A stretch of 42,665 nucleotides of DNA from Methylococcaceae bacterium (GTDB lineage: Bacteria; Pseudomonadota; Gammaproteobacteria; Methylococcales; Methylococcaceae): the NCBI GenBank assembly GCA_004299145.1, contig SCQD01000004.1:1-42665 (forward strand), in the 5' to 3' direction. The first letter of the stretch is position 1, and each line of letters begins with the position of its first letter. The notes under the pieces were generated by a model that saw only the letters and a program-made list of their open reading frames with translations, was not told the origin of the DNA and made no database searches. Positions 641 through 8,228 of the stretch are shown piece by piece. A program made the translations under genes and the position numbers.

Positions 641-3535
641 ATGGCGCGTTGGCACACGATAGGGGCATTATGCTGGCTGCTGGCGGGTTATATGCCATCG
701 GCAATGGCCAAGGACGCGGGACCGGCCCCGGCCGGCGCGCCGCCCAGCCGGCCCTTCCTGCGCCTGGAAAGCGGCGGCCACACGGCGATCATCAAGCGGA
801 TCGCCGTGGACGCCGCCGGTCGTTACCTGGTGAGCGCCTCCGACGACAAAACCGCGCGGGTCTGGGACGCCGCCAGCGGGGCCTTGCTGCAAACCCTGCG
901 CCCGCCCCTGGGCGAGGGCAACGAAGGCAAGCTCTACGCCGTGGCCCTGTCGCCGGATGGTTCCACGGTGGCGCTGGGCGGCTGGACCGGTTACGGTTGG
1001 GACGGAACCAACTCCATCTACCTGTTCGACCGTGCCGACGGCCGGCTGGTCCGCCGCCTGGCCGGCCTGCCCAACGTCATCCACGACCTGGCTTTTTCCC
1101 GCGACGGCCGCTACCTGGCGGCGGCGCTGGGCGGTGCCAACGGCATCCGCGTTTACCGCAGCGACACCTGGCAGGAAGCATTCCGCGACAGCGATTACGG
1201 CGCGGCCAGCTATTCGCTGGACTTCGCCGCCGACGGGCGCTTGCTTGCCAGCAGTTTGGATGGCTATCTCCGCCTGTACGACGGGGACTTCCGGCTGCTC
1301 GCCCAGCGGGCCGCGCCGGGCGGCAAGCAGCCGTTGTTCGCCCGTTTCGCCCCGGACGGCGACCGGGTGGCGGCAGGCTTCGCCGATTCCACGGCGGTCA
1401 ACCTGCTGGCCGGCCGCGACCTGGCCTTCCTCTCCGCCCCGGACACCGCCCAGGCCGCCAACAGTAATTTGGGCAGCGTCGCCTGGAGCGCCGACGGCGG
1501 CCGGCTGCTGGCCGGCGGGCGTTACATCGAATCCGGCAAGTTTCCGCTGTTGGCCTGGAACGCCGCCGGCACGGGCCGGCCGCAAGCCTGGCCGGTGAGC
1601 ACCAACACCCTCATGGATCTGCGCCCCCTGCCCGGCGGCCGGCTGGCTTTCGCCGCGGCCGATCCGCTGCTCGGCGTGCTGGATGACACAGGCCGGCCGC
1701 TGTGGCGGCGCGGCGGCGGCATCCTGGATTTCCGCGGCCGTTGGAGCGATTTCCGCCTGTCGGCGGACGCCGGCGTGGTGGAGTTCGGCTTCAATACTTG
1801 GAATGCCGACGGCCGGCTGCAACGGCACCGCGCCCGCTTCGACCTGAAGCGGCCCGGCCTGGTGCTGGAGCCCACGCCCCTGGCCGGCCTGGCCGCGCCC
1901 AACACCCAGGGCGAGCCGCGCACCGATTGGCTCGATACCACCTCCCCCAAGGTGCGCGGCCAAGTGCTGACGCTAGAGGTTAACGAAACCGCCTTCAGCC
2001 TGGCCCTGGCCCCCGCCGGTACGGGCTTTTTGCTGGGCACCGAATGGCTGCTGCGCTACTACGACGCCCCCGGCCGGCTGCGCTGGCAAAGCGCCGTGCC
2101 CGGCACCGCCTGGGCGGTGAACCTGTCGGGCGATGCCCGTTATGCAGTGGCGGCGTTCGGCGACGGCAGCATCCGCTGGTACGAAAGCCAAGGGGGCAAG
2201 GAAGTGCTGGCCCTGTTCGTCCACCCGGACAGCCTCAACCCCGCCACGCCGCGCTGGATCGCCTGGACGCCGGAGGGCTTTTACGACGCCGCCCCCGGCG
2301 CGGAGGCGTTGATCGGCTACCACCTCAACCAGGGCGCCGGCCAAGCCGGCCGCTTCGTCGCCGCCGCCCAGTTGCGCGAGCGCTTTTACCGCCCCAGCCT
2401 CATCGCCCGCCGCTTGTCCGCGGAAGGCGACGCCCTGTTGGCCGAGGCCCTGCGGCAATTGGGCGATGTCGGCCAAGCCCTGGCCGAGGGCGCGCCGCCG
2501 CCGGTGGAATTGCTGGGCAGCCCCAAGGAAATCGCCCCCGGCGAGTTCGAATTGAGCCTGCGCGTACCGCCCGGCACCGAGCTGCGCTACCGCCTGGACG
2601 GCAAGGACGAGCTGCAAGGCCGCGACGCCGGCCTGCCCGGCATCGGCCGGGACGTGGTCAGCCGCCGCTTTCGCTTGCCGGAAGGCGAGCACCGCCTGGA
2701 AATCACCGCCGGCAACGCGCGCGGCGTGGCTTCCGAGCCTTTGCAGGTGGAACTGGCGGTGCGCCCGCGCAGCGCGCAGCCGGCTTTGCGCGTGCTGGCG
2801 GTGGGCATCCAGGATTACCGCGACCACGCTTTGGCGCAAGGGGTGAAATTCGCCGCGGCGGATGCCGCCGGCATCGCCGCGCGCTTCCAGAGCCAGGGCG
2901 CCAAGCTGTACAGCCGGGTGGCGGTGCACACCCTGCGCGATGGGGAAGCCAGCGGCGCCGCCATCCGCCAGGCCATGGCCGAGGCCGCCGCCCAAACCGG
3001 GCCGGACGACGTGTTCGTGCTGTACCTGGCCGGCCACGGCTTGGCAGAAGACGACGAATACCACTTCGTGCCCTGGGACGCCCGCTATACCAACCGCGAT
3101 GAGCTGCTCCAGCACAGCCTGAACGAAGCCAGCCTGCGCGACATGCTGGCCGCCATCCCGGCGCACAAAACCCTGGTGATGCTGGACTCCTGCGACTCCG
3201 GCGCGTTCATCACCCACCAGGGCCGCGGCCCCCTGGGCGAAAAAAGCGCCATCGACCGCCTGGCCCGGCTCAGCGGACGCGCCATCCTGGCCGCCGCCAG
3301 CGATAAAAACATGGCCCTGGAAGGCGAAAACGGCCACGGCGCCTTCACCTACGCCCTGCTGGAAGGCCTGTCCGGCAAAGCCAACCGCGACAACAGCGAC
3401 AGCATCGACGTGGGCGAACTGGCCGACTACGTGCAAGACCGCCTGCCGGAACTCACCAAGCAAAAATGGGGCTACGAACAATTTCCCCTGCACGAACTCA
3501 ACGGCGCATCGTTCCCGGTACTACCGAAGCCGTAG
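641..3535 (+). CDS. Exported WD40-repeat caspase-family (C14) protease
   Basis: The 964-residue protein starts at ATG 641, with AGGAG about 10 nt upstream. Residues 1-23 form a signal peptide ending AMA before Lys24, so export to the periplasm is likely. Residues about 40-520 contain WD40-type propeller repeats (for example SASDDKTARVWD). A linker region about 520-710 follows, then a caspase-like domain from about 716 to 930. The catalytic dyad is visible as His799 in YLAGHG and Cys851 in MLDSCDSG; many bacterial relatives read DACHSG, so the residue after Cys differs. Known members (orthocaspase/metacaspase-like) cleave after basic residues and often act in stress or cell-death signalling; the substrate here is unknown. 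The gene sits in the repeat-bounded block with the RAYT and the TIR gene, all on the plus strand. Family assignment is firm, and a role in defence or regulated death is inference. Confidence 0.93.
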   Translation: MARWHTIGALCWLLAGYMPSAMAKDAGPAPAGAPPSRPFLRLESGGHTAIIKRIAVDAAGRYLVSASDDKTARVWDAASGALLQTLRPPLGEGNEGKLYAVALSPDGSTVALGGWTGYGWDGTNSIYLFDRADGRLVRRLAGLPNVIHDLAFSRDGRYLAAALGGANGIRVYRSDTWQEAFRDSDYGAASYSLDFAADGRLLASSLDGYLRLYDGDFRLLAQRAAPGGKQPLFARFAPDGDRVAAGFADSTAVNLLAGRDLAFLSAPDTAQAANSNLGSVAWSADGGRLLAGGRYIESGKFPLLAWNAAGTGRPQAWPVSTNTLMDLRPLPGGRLAFAAADPLLGVLDDTGRPLWRRGGGILDFRGRWSDFRLSADAGVVEFGFNTWNADGRLQRHRARFDLKRPGLVLEPTPLAGLAAPNTQGEPRTDWLDTTSPKVRGQVLTLEVNETAFSLALAPAGTGFLLGTEWLLRYYDAPGRLRWQSAVPGTAWAVNLSGDARYAVAAFGDGSIRWYESQGGKEVLALFVHPDSLNPATPRWIAWTPEGFYDAAPGAEALIGYHLNQGAGQAGRFVAAAQLRERFYRPSLIARRLSAEGDALLAEALRQLGDVGQALAEGAPPPVELLGSPKEIAPGEFELSLRVPPGTELRYRLDGKDELQGRDAGLPGIGRDVVSRRFRLPEGEHRLEITAGNARGVASEPLQVELAVRPRSAQPALRVLAVGIQDYRDHALAQGVKFAAADAAGIAARFQSQGAKLYSRVAVHTLRDGEASGAAIRQAMAEAAAQTGPDDVFVLYLAGHGLAEDDEYHFVPWDARYTNRDELLQHSLNEASLRDMLAAIPAHKTLVMLDSCDSGAFITHQGRGPLGEKSAIDRLARLSGRAILAAASDKNMALEGENGHGAFTYALLEGLSGKANRDNSDSIDVGELADYVQDRLPELTKQKWGYEQFPLHELNGASFPVLPKP

Positions 3536-3542
3536 CTCCCCT

Positions 3543-3655
3543 CGTTCCCACGCGCCGCGTGGGAACGCAGCCCGGGCGCGCCGCGCCCCGTGTCGAGCCG
3601 GCGCCTACGCGGCGCAGCGCGCCGCCACGGCGTTCCCACGCAGCGCGTGGGAACG
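3543..3655. repeat. Pair of REP palindromes upstream of the RAYT
   Basis: Two near-identical hairpins lie between the caspase and RAYT genes. The first has 11-bp arms CGTTCCCACGC (3543-3553) and GCGTGGGAACG (3557-3567). The second has the same arms at 3631-3641 and 3645-3655. Each has a 3-nt loop. A GC-rich tract (3568-3597) beside the first hairpin is the reverse complement of the tract beside the hairpins at 4282-4336 and 4446-4500, so REPs flank the RAYT in inverted orientation. This is the usual arrangement of a RAYT with its cognate REPs. Confidence 0.9.
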
Positions 3656-3689
3656 AGCGATACATCCAGCCATACGAAGGAGCAAAACC

Positions 3690-4226
3690 ATGGGCCGTAG
3701 CCGTTACCGCGTGGTGGGTAAAAACGTCCCCCACTTCATCACCTGCACCGTTTTGAACTGGATTCCCCTGTTCACCCGCCCGCAAACGGCAGAGATTGTC
3801 CTGGAGGCCATCCAGCACCGGCAGGCACAGTCGCTGTGGCGGGTTTACGGCTACGTGCTGTTGGAAAACCATTTACACATGGTCGTCCAGGCCGACGACC
3901 TGGCCGGCGAGGTGGCGCGCTTCAAGTCATACACCGCGCGCCGTTTGATCGACTGTCTGGAAGCCTGCCAGGCGGAGCGGTTATTGAAGCAATTGGCGTT
4001 TTTCCGCAAGGCGCACAAGCATGACCGCGACTATCAGGTGTGGGAGGAGGGCGCGCACCCGCAAGCCATAGAAAATGAGCAGGTGTTGCGGCAAAAGCTG
4101 GAGTATATCCACCAGAACCCGGTGAAGCGCGGCTATGTGGACGATCCGGCGCACTGGCGCTATTCCAGCGCCAGGAATTATGCCGGCCAGCCGGGCTTGG
4201 TGCCGGTGTTTAAGGAGTGGCTGTGA
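3690..4226 (+). CDS. REP-associated tyrosine transposase (RAYT, IS200-like Y1 family)
   Basis: This 178-residue protein has the Y1 transposase features of RAYTs. HFITCTV lies near the N-terminus, the metal-binding HxH motif is ENHLHMVV (His61 and His63), and a candidate nucleophile is Tyr81 in RFKSYTARR. RAYTs are single-strand DNA transposases that bind and cut REP hairpins and are usually single-copy, domesticated genes. The length is normal for the family and there is no frameshift. ATG 3690 has a strong AAGGAG upstream. REP hairpins lie on both sides, in inverted orientation. The TGA stop (4224-4226) overlaps ATG 4226 of the first tandem-repeat frame, and the last 15 or so codons are themselves the 3' part of that tandem repeat. 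Location between the caspase and TIR genes suggests it may have shaped this island. Confidence 0.92.
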   Translation: MGRSRYRVVGKNVPHFITCTVLNWIPLFTRPQTAEIVLEAIQHRQAQSLWRVYGYVLLENHLHMVVQADDLAGEVARFKSYTARRLIDCLEACQAERLLKQLAFFRKAHKHDRDYQVWEEGAHPQAIENEQVLRQKLEYIHQNPVKRGYVDDPAHWRYSSARNYAGQPGLVPVFKEWL

Positions 4227-4390
4227 TGGGCGCTGCTGCGCGTGATGCCGGGGTAGGGTTTTCACGCCGTATTGCCCTGGCCCGATACGGGGCGCGGCGC
4301 GCCCGGGCTGCATTCCCACGCGGCGCGTGGGAACGAGGAAATGATGTCGGCCAGCCGGGCTTGGTGCCGGTGTTTAAGGAGTGGCTGTGA
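4226..4390 (+). CDS. 54-residue frame in tandem unit 1
   Basis: ATG 4226 shares its A with the RAYT stop codon and has AAGGAG (4212-4217) 8 nt upstream. The frame runs through the REP hairpin and the RAYT tail, ending ...PVFKEWL like the RAYT, and stops at TGA 4388-4390. The product is rich in Ala, Arg and Gly. Its middle (AAFPRGAWERG) is encoded by the REP palindrome. It may be translated by coupling from the RAYT, but may be a by-product of the repeat with no function as a protein. Confidence 0.35.
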   Translation: MGAAARDAGVGFSRRIALARYGARRARAAFPRGAWERGNDVGQPGLVPVFKEWL

Positions 4391-4554
4391 TGGGCGCTGC
4401 GCCGCGTGATGCCGGGGTAGGGTTTTCACGCTGTATTGCCCTGGCCCGATACGGGGCGCGGCGCGCCCGAGCTGCATTCCCACGCAGCGCGTGGGAACGA
4501 GGAAATGATGCCGGCCAGCCGGGCTTGGTGCCGGTGTTTAAGGAGTGGCTGTGA
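4390..4554 (+). CDS. 54-residue frame in tandem unit 2
   Basis: This second copy starts at ATG 4390, again overlapping the preceding TGA by one base and preceded by AAGGAG. It encodes a near-identical 54-residue peptide; most of the base differences between the units change an amino acid, but none introduces a stop. Its own TGA (4552-4554) overlaps the ATG of the TIR gene. Both frames staying open despite substitutions is mildly suggestive of translation, but the repeats could simply be recent. Confidence 0.35.
   Translation: MGAAPRDAGVGFSRCIALARYGARRARAAFPRSAWERGNDAGQPGLVPVFKEWL
4540..4553 (+). promoter_or_regulatory. RAYT-derived ribosome-binding site of the TIR gene
   Basis: AAGGAG at 4540-4545 with an 8-nt spacer precedes ATG 4554. 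These bases are the third copy of the RAYT 3' end (codons for FKEWL and the stop). The TIR gene therefore takes its ribosome-binding site and start codon from transposase-derived sequence. A GTG at 4545 also opens the frame but overlaps the site, so ATG 4554 is preferred. Confidence 0.7.
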
Positions 4555-6074
4555 TGGGCGGTGCTGCATTCCCAATCGGCGCTGGGGAACGGGGGAGGCG
4601 CTTTCGCGTCGCCCTGTCTTTTCCCGGCGAACACCGTGCATACGTGGCACAAATCGCCGATTGCCTGGCCCAGCAATTGGGCCGACGGCAGGTGTTTTAC
4701 GACCGTTGGTACGAGGTGGAACTGGCCAAGCCCAATCTGGACCTGCATTTGCAGGCCATCTATCACGATCAGGCCGATCTGGTGGTGGTGTTTTTGTGCA
4801 AAGAGTACAACCAAAAACAATGGTGCGGCCTGGAGTGGCGCGCTTTGCGGGATTTGATCAAGCGGCGCGAGGACGCGCTGTTGCTGCCTATCCGCCTGGA
4901 CGACGCCGACATTCCCGGCCTGCTGTCCATCGACGGCTATGTGGACGCCCAAGGCCGGCCGGCCGAGGAAATCGCCGCGCTGATTTTGCAGCGGCTGGGG
5001 ATGGCGCGGCCGTTCGACCCGCCGCGCCGGGCCTGGCGCAAATGGCTGGCGGCGGCCCTCTTGCTGGCCGGTTTGGGCTTGGCAAGCTGGCTGTTCTATG
5101 TCCAGCCGCGCCAAGAGGAAATCGCCCGCCACCTGGACCTGGCGCGCCGCTATATGGACACCGGCCAATACCGGGAGGCGCAGGACGAGTACGCCCAGGC
5201 GGAGCATTTGGCGGCACCTTTTGACGGCGGGGCGGCGCGTCTGGGGCGGGAAAAAGCCGCCATCGGCGCGCGCTGGCCGTTGGCCGATGCCGGTGAACGC
5301 GAGGCTTTGGCGCGCCGGCTGGATGCCTTGCTGGAGCAGCGGGGCGAGGACGCCGATGTGCTGCTGCTGGATGGCGACCGCCATTATTGGAGCGGGCTGG
5401 ACGATGGGAAGTCCCGCGCTTTGCCTCGGTATCGGCAAGCGTTGGAACGGCGCCAGCAACTGGCCGAGGCCGCTTACCGGCTGGGGGTGCTGTTCGACGA
5501 GGCCGGGGATGGGCGGGCGCCGGACTATTTCGAGGCCGCCTACCGCCAGTCCCCGCAAACGCCGCACTACGCCGTGGATTACGCCGCCACGCTGCTCAAG
5601 CAAGGGCGCTACCGGGCGGCCATCGACGCGCTGGCGCCGGTCGCCGATTATCCCCTGGCGCGCCTGGAGCAAGCCAAAGGCCATTGGGCGTTGGGCGAAT
5701 TCGCCCAGGCGGAAGTGCTACAGGCGGAGGCGGTCAACGATTTGGCCAATCCGGCCAGCGCCGCAAACCCGCGCCTGCGCTATAGCTGGAAGCTGGACTT
5801 GCCCGACGCGGGCCGCGTGCTGCAACTGTCCACTGACGGGGGCAAGCGCTGCTACGCCGGCTTGGCCCTGGCGGCCAGCCGGTTTTTCCAGGGCCGGGAG
5901 CAGGCCGCGCAACAGGCCGCCGGCCAGGCCGGGTGTCCGGCGGATTCGGCGGCGGTGCGGGATGCGCTGGCGCTGGACCTGCGGTGCTACGCCTCAGCCG
6001 GTTTGGCGAACGGGCCGGAGCGGTTGCGGAAATTTTTGCCGCTCCTCGGCGCCCCGTCGGCCACCGAGCGATAG
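4554..6074 (+). CDS. TIR domain - transmembrane - TPR-like protein
   Basis: This 506-residue protein begins with a TIR domain at about residues 18-150. RFRVALSFPGEH is the first strand motif, FYDRWYE follows, and EYNQKQWCGLEW contains the predicted catalytic Glu94. Such bacterial TIR domains often hydrolyse NAD+ or make signalling nucleotides. One hydrophobic segment (about 163-183, LAAALLLAGLGLASWLF) should anchor it in the inner membrane with the TIR domain cytoplasmic. The remaining 320 residues are helical TPR-like repeats, probably periplasmic, which could sense a ligand or partner. The first 16 residues (MGGAAFPIGAGERGRR) match REP-encoded sequence rather than the TIR family. The gene shares strand and island with the caspase gene. 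TIR assignment is firm; NADase activity and a defence role are inferred. Confidence 0.92.
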   Translation: MGGAAFPIGAGERGRRFRVALSFPGEHRAYVAQIADCLAQQLGRRQVFYDRWYEVELAKPNLDLHLQAIYHDQADLVVVFLCKEYNQKQWCGLEWRALRDLIKRREDALLLPIRLDDADIPGLLSIDGYVDAQGRPAEEIAALILQRLGMARPFDPPRRAWRKWLAAALLLAGLGLASWLFYVQPRQEEIARHLDLARRYMDTGQYREAQDEYAQAEHLAAPFDGGAARLGREKAAIGARWPLADAGEREALARRLDALLEQRGEDADVLLLDGDRHYWSGLDDGKSRALPRYRQALERRQQLAEAAYRLGVLFDEAGDGRAPDYFEAAYRQSPQTPHYAVDYAATLLKQGRYRAAIDALAPVADYPLARLEQAKGHWALGEFAQAEVLQAEAVNDLANPASAANPRLRYSWKLDLPDAGRVLQLSTDGGKRCYAGLALAASRFFQGREQAAQQAAGQAGCPADSAAVRDALALDLRCYASAGLANGPERLRKFLPLLGAPSATER

Positions 6075-7094: not shown

Positions 7095-8228
7095 TTATAT
7101 CAAGCTGAAATAACCATCGCCGGCACTGCCCGCGTCGATTTGCAAATCGGCCATGTCCACGCCGACCAGTTTGATGGTGTCCGCTCCGCCGCCGCCGGCT
7201 CTGACCGTGCCCGCAGCCCCCAACTGGATCAGCGTGCCGGATTTAATGGATTGCAGGCTGTAATCGGCGTCGTTGAAAATGCCGTCGCCGTTCTGATCGA
7301 CAGTCTGTATCAGGTCGGCCGTGCTGAAGTCCTTGATCACGTCGTTGCCGATAATCAGGCCTGTGTAGTCGAACAAGTCCGTTCCCGCACCGCCGGTCAA
7401 TACGTCTTTGCCCAGCCCACCGAGCAATGTGTCCGCACCGGCTTCTCCGTTCAGCCGGTCGTTGCCGCTGCCGCCGTCTTGCTGATCGTCCCCCAGGCCG
7501 CCGGCCAAGTCGTCGAGACCGGTTCCTCCCGATAAATCGTCATCGCCCTCGCCGCCGTCTTCGTGGTCGTTGCCGATGCCGCCAATCAGGCTGTCCATGC
7601 CCAAGTTTCCAGCCAAATCGTCATCGCCTGAGCCGCCATTTACAGCATCGTTGCCGGTGCCGCCGATCAGGCTGTCGTTGCCGAAATCGCCATACAAACT
7701 GTCGTCGCCGTCGCCGCCGTCTTCGTTGTCATGGCCATCGCCCCCATTCAAGTCGTCGTTCCCCAGGCCGCCGAACAGCCGGTCGTCACCGTCGCCGCCA
7801 TCGGCGTGATCGTTGCCGTCGCCGCCGTTCATGTCGTCGTTATCCAGACCGCCGAACAATTGATCGTCGCCGTCGCCGCCGTCTTCGTGGTCTTGACCGA
7901 TGCCGCCGTACAAGTCGTCGTCGCCCAGGTCGCCGAACAGCTGGTCGTCGCCATCGTCGCCGTTGACGTGATCGTGGCCGTTGCCGCCGCTCAGGCTGTC
8001 GTTGCCAAATGCGCCGTAGACCGTGTCGTCGCCTTCGCCGCCGTCTTCCTGGTCATGGCCGTTGCCGCCGTCGATGTGATCGCTGCCCAATCCACCGAAC
8101 AGGATGTCGTCGCTGTCGCCGCCGATCTCGTGATCGTCACCGTCAGTACCATGATCATCATCGTGTTCGTAATAGTCATCGCTGTCTTTCGTGATTTTCA
8201 AATAGCCTGTTGCGAGTCGTGTAGCCAT
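7095..8228 (-). CDS. RTX calcium-binding repeat protein, His/Asp-rich
   Basis: Start ATG 8228 has GGAG 8 nt upstream, giving 377 residues; an in-frame ATG at 8288 lacks such a site. After a short N-terminus (MATRLATGYLKITKDSDDYY) and an acidic tract, residues about 35-290 are tandem RTX nonapeptides such as GGDGDDRLFGGLGNDDLNGG, repeating about every 18 residues. Such repeats bind Ca2+ as a beta-roll, usually in proteins secreted by type I systems. Alternate units carry unusual GHDHEDGG-type His/Asp/Glu segments. The C-terminal part (about 290-377) has LFDYTGLIIGNDVIKDF and a final DGYFSLI, resembling a C-terminal secretion region. No RTX toxin or enzyme domain is present. No HlyD or TolC gene is adjacent. 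A role as an extracellular or surface structural protein is inferred. Confidence 0.88.
   Translation of the reverse strand: MATRLATGYLKITKDSDDYYEHDDDHGTDGDDHEIGGDSDDILFGGLGSDHIDGGNGHDQEDGGEGDDTVYGAFGNDSLSGGNGHDHVNGDDGDDQLFGDLGDDDLYGGIGQDHEDGGDGDDQLFGGLDNDDMNGGDGNDHADGGDGDDRLFGGLGNDDLNGGDGHDNEDGGDGDDSLYGDFGNDSLIGGTGNDAVNGGSGDDDLAGNLGMDSLIGGIGNDHEDGGEGDDDLSGGTGLDDLAGGLGDDQQDGGSGNDRLNGEAGADTLLGGLGKDVLTGGAGTDLFDYTGLIIGNDVIKDFSTADLIQTVDQNGDGIFNDADYSLQSIKSGTLIQLGAAGTVRAGGGGADTIKLVGVDMADLQIDAGSAGDGYFSLI

Follow-up and report, generated by a model that had tools for sequence, protein, structure and literature searches.

Four cases in which the 3' ends of rayt genes, together with the sequence from the stop codon to the REP, have been built into BIMEs are described in the part of Nunvar et al. 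2010 (PMC2817692) on which we draw. Tandem arrays of REPs or REPINs with their flanks, lying beside a gene for a REP-associated tyrosine transposase (RAYT), are reported by Bertels and Rainey 2011 (PMC3116915); neither coding tails of RAYT genes nor captured starts of genes come up in the sections used here. For translational coupling through stop/start overlap in E. coli, the portion of PMC7538156 cited here names melting of structure by the upstream ribosomes, rather than re-initiation, as the favoured mechanism. Here we describe a locus with likenesses to all three, found in a window of 42,665 nucleotides, the whole stretch of Methylococcaceae bacterium DNA that was analysed (assembly GCA_004299145.1, contig SCQD01000004.1). 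Like the rayt-adjacent BIMEs of PMC2817692, it repeats a RAYT 3' end and the sequence from stop to REP in a REP array beside the RAYT gene; like the REPIN clusters of PMC3116915, it is a tandem array with flanks at a RAYT; and like the coupled genes of PMC7538156, it has TGATG overlaps with an AAGGAG upstream of the next ORF. Unlike the BIMEs as described in that part of PMC2817692, its palindromes are without the GT(A/G)G head, and a TIR gene is fused to its last tail copy, which supplies the only start of that gene; unlike the coupled genes, its intermediate frames carry no coding signal, the likeness being one of layout. The kind of rearrangement is already described, and what is unusual here is that the last tail copy supplies the TIR gene's only start. 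We consider it very probable that a RAYT-tail/REP segment was duplicated locally within a caspase/TIR gene pair, that the third copy took over the start of the TIR gene, and that the 54-codon frames of the array are by-products.

The RAYT gene, its palindromes and the 164-bp array

The RAYT of the window scored 100.4 bits against NCBIfam NF047646 (cut-off 80), which places it in that family, and its position between REP-like palindromes that are dispersed through its own genome likewise supports membership. On the 5' side these palindromes form an inverted pair directly 3' of the caspase stop. We call them REP-like because they are without the published GT(A/G)G head, which is absent next to the palindrome, where the borders read from the sequence are CTCG and CGAG. 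A second RAYT in the same genome (L029, 1200-1760 of G000:C270) consists of adjoining N- and C-terminal pieces between REPs, corresponding to residues 1-57 and 125-178, and is an internally deleted copy.

Tandem Repeats Finder returned a period of 164, 2.4 copies, a 96% match and no indels across 4176-4564, which bears out the 164-bp tandem repeat of the original prediction; this repeat is far beyond chance. The array comprises two full 164-bp copies and one partial copy. A unit starts with the ~46 nt that end the RAYT gene, continues through a spacer and closes with a REP-like palindrome (last ~65 nt), and the third, partial copy ends within the start of the TIR gene. The locus belongs with the REP arrays that have captured a RAYT 3' end, which both full units and the partial third carry, and the stretch from AAGGAG to ATGGGC is intact in three of three copies (Table 1). 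When its own genome was searched with the array, 65 places matched (40 of 185 first-look candidates were scored), the full unit at a single one of them and the REP part only at all others. A search of 311 genomes of the order with the RAYT tail and spacer gave matches in 12 genomes, its own included, and outside the array these were pieces of at most 40 nt only. No Rfam match to a structured RNA was obtained in the window. Short-read repeats can be mis-assembled and the window comes from a draft genome of 353 contigs, of which it is one, yet we regard an assembly artefact as extremely unlikely, given that six substitutions distinguish units 1 and 2, that unit 3 differs further, and that the same kind of array is found in the single-contig genomes G185 and G218. 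Elsewhere in the window, a minus-strand gene at 7539-8137 contains long tandem repeats with periods of 81 and 162 that encode Gly-Asp-rich repeats, which we take to resemble RTX-type proteins.

Table 1. Features of the RAYT/TIR locus, in window coordinates
Feature	Position	Strand	Description
WD40-caspase (Peptidase_C14) gene	641-3535	+	Pfam PF00656, PF00400; upstream of RAYT
Inverted REP-like palindrome pair	3540-3657	.	3540-3599 (-), 3606-3657 (+); own-genome matches
RAYT gene	3690-4226	+	178 aa, C-terminus FKEWL*; NCBIfam NF047646
Unit 1	4181-4344	+	RAYT 3' end 4181-4226, spacer, REP-like element about 4274-4341
54-codon frame 1	4226-4390	+	Judged spurious; codon log-odds -0.47 outside tail
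Unit 2	4345-4508	+	RAYT-tail copy, spacer, REP; 6 substitutions relative to unit 1
54-codon frame 2	4390-4554	+	Judged spurious; codon log-odds -0.54 outside tail
Unit 3, partial	4509-4567	+	RAYT-tail copy, 98%; AAGGAG 4540-4545, putative TIR start ATG 4554
TIR-TM-TPR gene	4554-6074	+	506 aa; Pfam TIR_2; TM by eye; TPR from weak NCBIfam hits
Decayed REP core in first TIR codons	4564-4597	+	Encodes AAFPIGAGERG; 27/34 identical to unit-1 REP

The 54-codon frames and the start of the TIR gene

An AAGGAG lies 8 nt before an ATG that overlaps a stop as TGATG at 4226, 4390 and 4554, so that the overlap and ribosome-binding site of a coupled gene chain are present at three junctions, and the two frames between them, each of 54 codons plus stop, are open throughout. 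RAYT, frame 1, frame 2 and TIR had been proposed to be chained by four copies of one ribosome-binding context; the overlaps are there, but the copies number three, as the start context of RAYT itself (AAGGAG, 7 nt, ATGGGC) lies outside the repeat and is similar to the repeat context without being a copy of it. Openness of this kind is expected by chance: dinucleotide shuffling of the unit left the frame open 49% of the time and gave the chain in 16.5% on average over three length classes, and frame 2 adds no independent evidence because it is a duplicate of frame 1. In codon log-odds per codon, true gene windows scored 0.63 ± 0.24, wrong frames -0.55 ± 0.46 and the RAYT gene, held out of training, 0.53, while the two frames scored as off-frame windows do and so lack the signal of real coding sequences. 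Neither frame had a match in Pfam, NCBIfam or PADLOC, and the six codon differences between units 1 and 2 divide into four that replace a residue and two that are synonymous, a split that is uninformative about selection on the frames. The 54-codon frames look accidental, as by-products of a G+C-rich unit with a length of 2 modulo 3. Short ORFs containing REP are treated as plausibly spurious in the part of PMC3733652 cited here. The motifs and open frames of the original prediction are real features of the sequence, but their reading as genes is not supported, given non-coding codon usage and chance-level openness.

From this layout a translational relay had been proposed, in which ribosomes move on from RAYT to frame 1, frame 2 and finally TIR through stop/start coupling, with the number of units tuning TIR output. 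Such a relay fits the three junctions, each with an exact AAGGAG-N8-ATG and a TGATG, and the open frames between them; the number of tandem units could also change. Against it stand the chance-level, non-coding character of the frames, the occurrence in a single genome, and the absence of an ATG overlapping the stop in other arrays. The AAGGAG has an explanation of its own: it represents the Lys-Glu codons of the RAYT C-terminus, and related RAYTs end in K-[D/E]-W-L, with AAGGA encoded there. We also considered a hidden ribosome-binding site at TIR, which was rejected, as the predicted unpaired probability of its AAGGAG was 0.34-0.86 depending on the folded context, random hexamers averaging 0.37, and no clear sequestration was predicted. 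Because the TIR AAGGAG is not predicted to be specially hidden, nothing indicates a need for passage through the 54-codon frames. A designed relay of small genes was rejected as the main reading on the basis of the chance rate, the codon usage and the lack of overlap in other arrays; tuning by copy number is not supported either, the unit being of a published kind, the overlap absent from the similar arrays, the frames scoring as non-coding and the AAGGAG not predicted to be specially hidden. The positive evidence for a copy-number relay is confined to its layout, and we consider such a relay very unlikely. Among freely available papers, screened by title and the opening of the abstract, no tandem coupled-frame system was found.

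The start of the TIR gene points to the last repeat copy. In the TIR frame, position 4539 holds the last stop before the domain, and start codons are limited to GTG 4545, GTG 4551 and ATG 4554, all of them within the third RAYT-tail copy. Homologues with an N-terminal TIR domain start 6-10 residues upstream of the domain (L118, L056, L121, L122, L124, L126 and L058), in L059 starts are possible at 5, 9 and farther upstream, and L119 and L120, in which the TIR domain is not N-terminal, are uninformative on this distance. The TIR protein of the window has 16 residues before the domain, which come from the RAYT tail, the REP or their junction with the domain, and the 27/34 match of the decayed REP core was reached by none of 5000 shuffles. 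The most likely start of TIR translation is ATG 4554, where the captured AAGGAG would act on its own or with the help of ribosomes that terminate at the stop overlapping this codon. As TIR takes its only start codons and its AAGGAG from the last repeat copy, local RAYT-to-TIR coupling is plausible and may possibly occur. A simpler account would have only this last copy matter, used directly or by local coupling, with the extra units neutral. The location of every TIR start codon within that copy agrees with it, as does the frequency of stop/start overlap, at over 30% of E. coli gene pairs in the portion of PMC7538156 cited, and judged from the sequence its chances are about even; here it is indistinguishable from the local duplication that we prefer, of which it is the functional half.

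Comparable arrays at other RAYT loci

Copies of the RAYT 3' end were sought downstream at RAYT loci from named genomes and from the 311 genomes of the order. The sample represents the best matches among the matches listed, comprising most of the listed RAYT places, and is not random; it holds 156 loci and 160 ends of full-length RAYTs, the window included. A tail-copy score of at least 26 was reached by twelve loci, of which three were dropped and nine kept, namely the window (L023) and eight others, so that similar arrays occur at L147, L204, L159, L156, L192, L048, L095 and L217 among the 156 listed loci. The dropped loci were L040, where the copied stretch is the REP itself and the ORF reads through, L073, where the copy stops before reaching the stop codon and the RAYT is 29% identical, and L078, with a 35-nt copy and a RAYT 29% identical, which may be a tenth case. 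Tandem REP arrays are also found just downstream of cyanobacterial RAYT loci (e.g. L043 and L040).

The anatomy of these arrays is constant: a RAYT stop, at least one REP, a 5'-truncated RAYT tail running to the same stop, and a REP, with the exception of L217, where the whole RAYT gene is repeated rather than a truncated tail. Junctions were examined in seven of the other arrays. Six of them have the truncated tail starting within about 10 nt of a REP palindrome; the sole exception is L095, a decayed array whose junction is not at the usual REP end and whose tail copy ends 7 nt short of the stop. In L159, L156, L192 and L095 the truncation falls close to one position (codons 144-149), possibly a preferred break point. 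The two near-identical whole RAYT genes of L217 (G253) are 725 bp apart, and at L222 (G066) three whole RAYT genes lie within about 4.5 kb.

None of the eight other arrays has an ATG overlapping the stop. In this best-match sample, AAGGA occurs near the stop in 11 of 160 full-length RAYT ends and TGATG in 13 of 160, and the two occur together in the window only, with about 0.9 such ends expected by independence; their sole co-occurrence in the window could also be explained by selection for coupling. The unbroken AAGGAG...ATGGGC of all three copies likewise weighs against the reading that we prefer, as do the decayed L095 array with its unusual junction and the missing GT(A/G)G head. A wider proposal, that RAYT/REP arrays are portable start modules in which a tail-encoded Shine-Dalgarno sequence with its overlapping start is amplified before a neighbour, unit number setting how many coupled frames separate RAYT from TIR and array expansion tuning TIR translation, is in our estimation very unlikely indeed.

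Proposed origin within a caspase/TIR gene pair

In relatives the WD40-caspase gene adjoins a TIR-TPR, TPR or TIR gene without an intervening RAYT (G018, G027 and G028). G018 has two such loci, with the genes 282 nt apart at one and overlapping or abutting at the other, and G028 has a caspase-TIR pair. Since in relatives a TIR or TPR gene immediately adjoins the caspase gene, we place the RAYT/REP array of the window inside a caspase/TIR pair. The caspase and TIR-TM-TPR genes are possibly a stress or defence module; assignment to a known defence system was rejected, the PADLOC caspase model having matched weakly and TIR and the small frames being unmatched.

In the simplest history, a RAYT gene and the REP-like palindromes on either side of it would have entered the caspase/TIR pair, and the segment comprising the RAYT 3' end, the spacer and the downstream REP would then have been duplicated in tandem. 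The third copy would have lost its spacer, become fused to the TIR gene and replaced the native start, such that the AAGGAG...TGATGG of the RAYT tail would now serve as ribosome-binding site and start of TIR, and a decayed REP would encode the first TIR residues. Any coupling would be ordinary local coupling. The array is known from one draft genome and no other strain carries it, so the order of these events is one that we infer, as are any coupling and the use of this start in vivo.

This locus, in which a RAYT/REP array would have taken over the start of a neighbour, offers a concrete way for transposase-like genes to reshape operons and a compact setting in which to study the origin of 5'-truncated RAYT-tail/REP copies. 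It is also a warning that short frames derived from REPs, when they have good ribosome-binding sites, can mimic designed relays.
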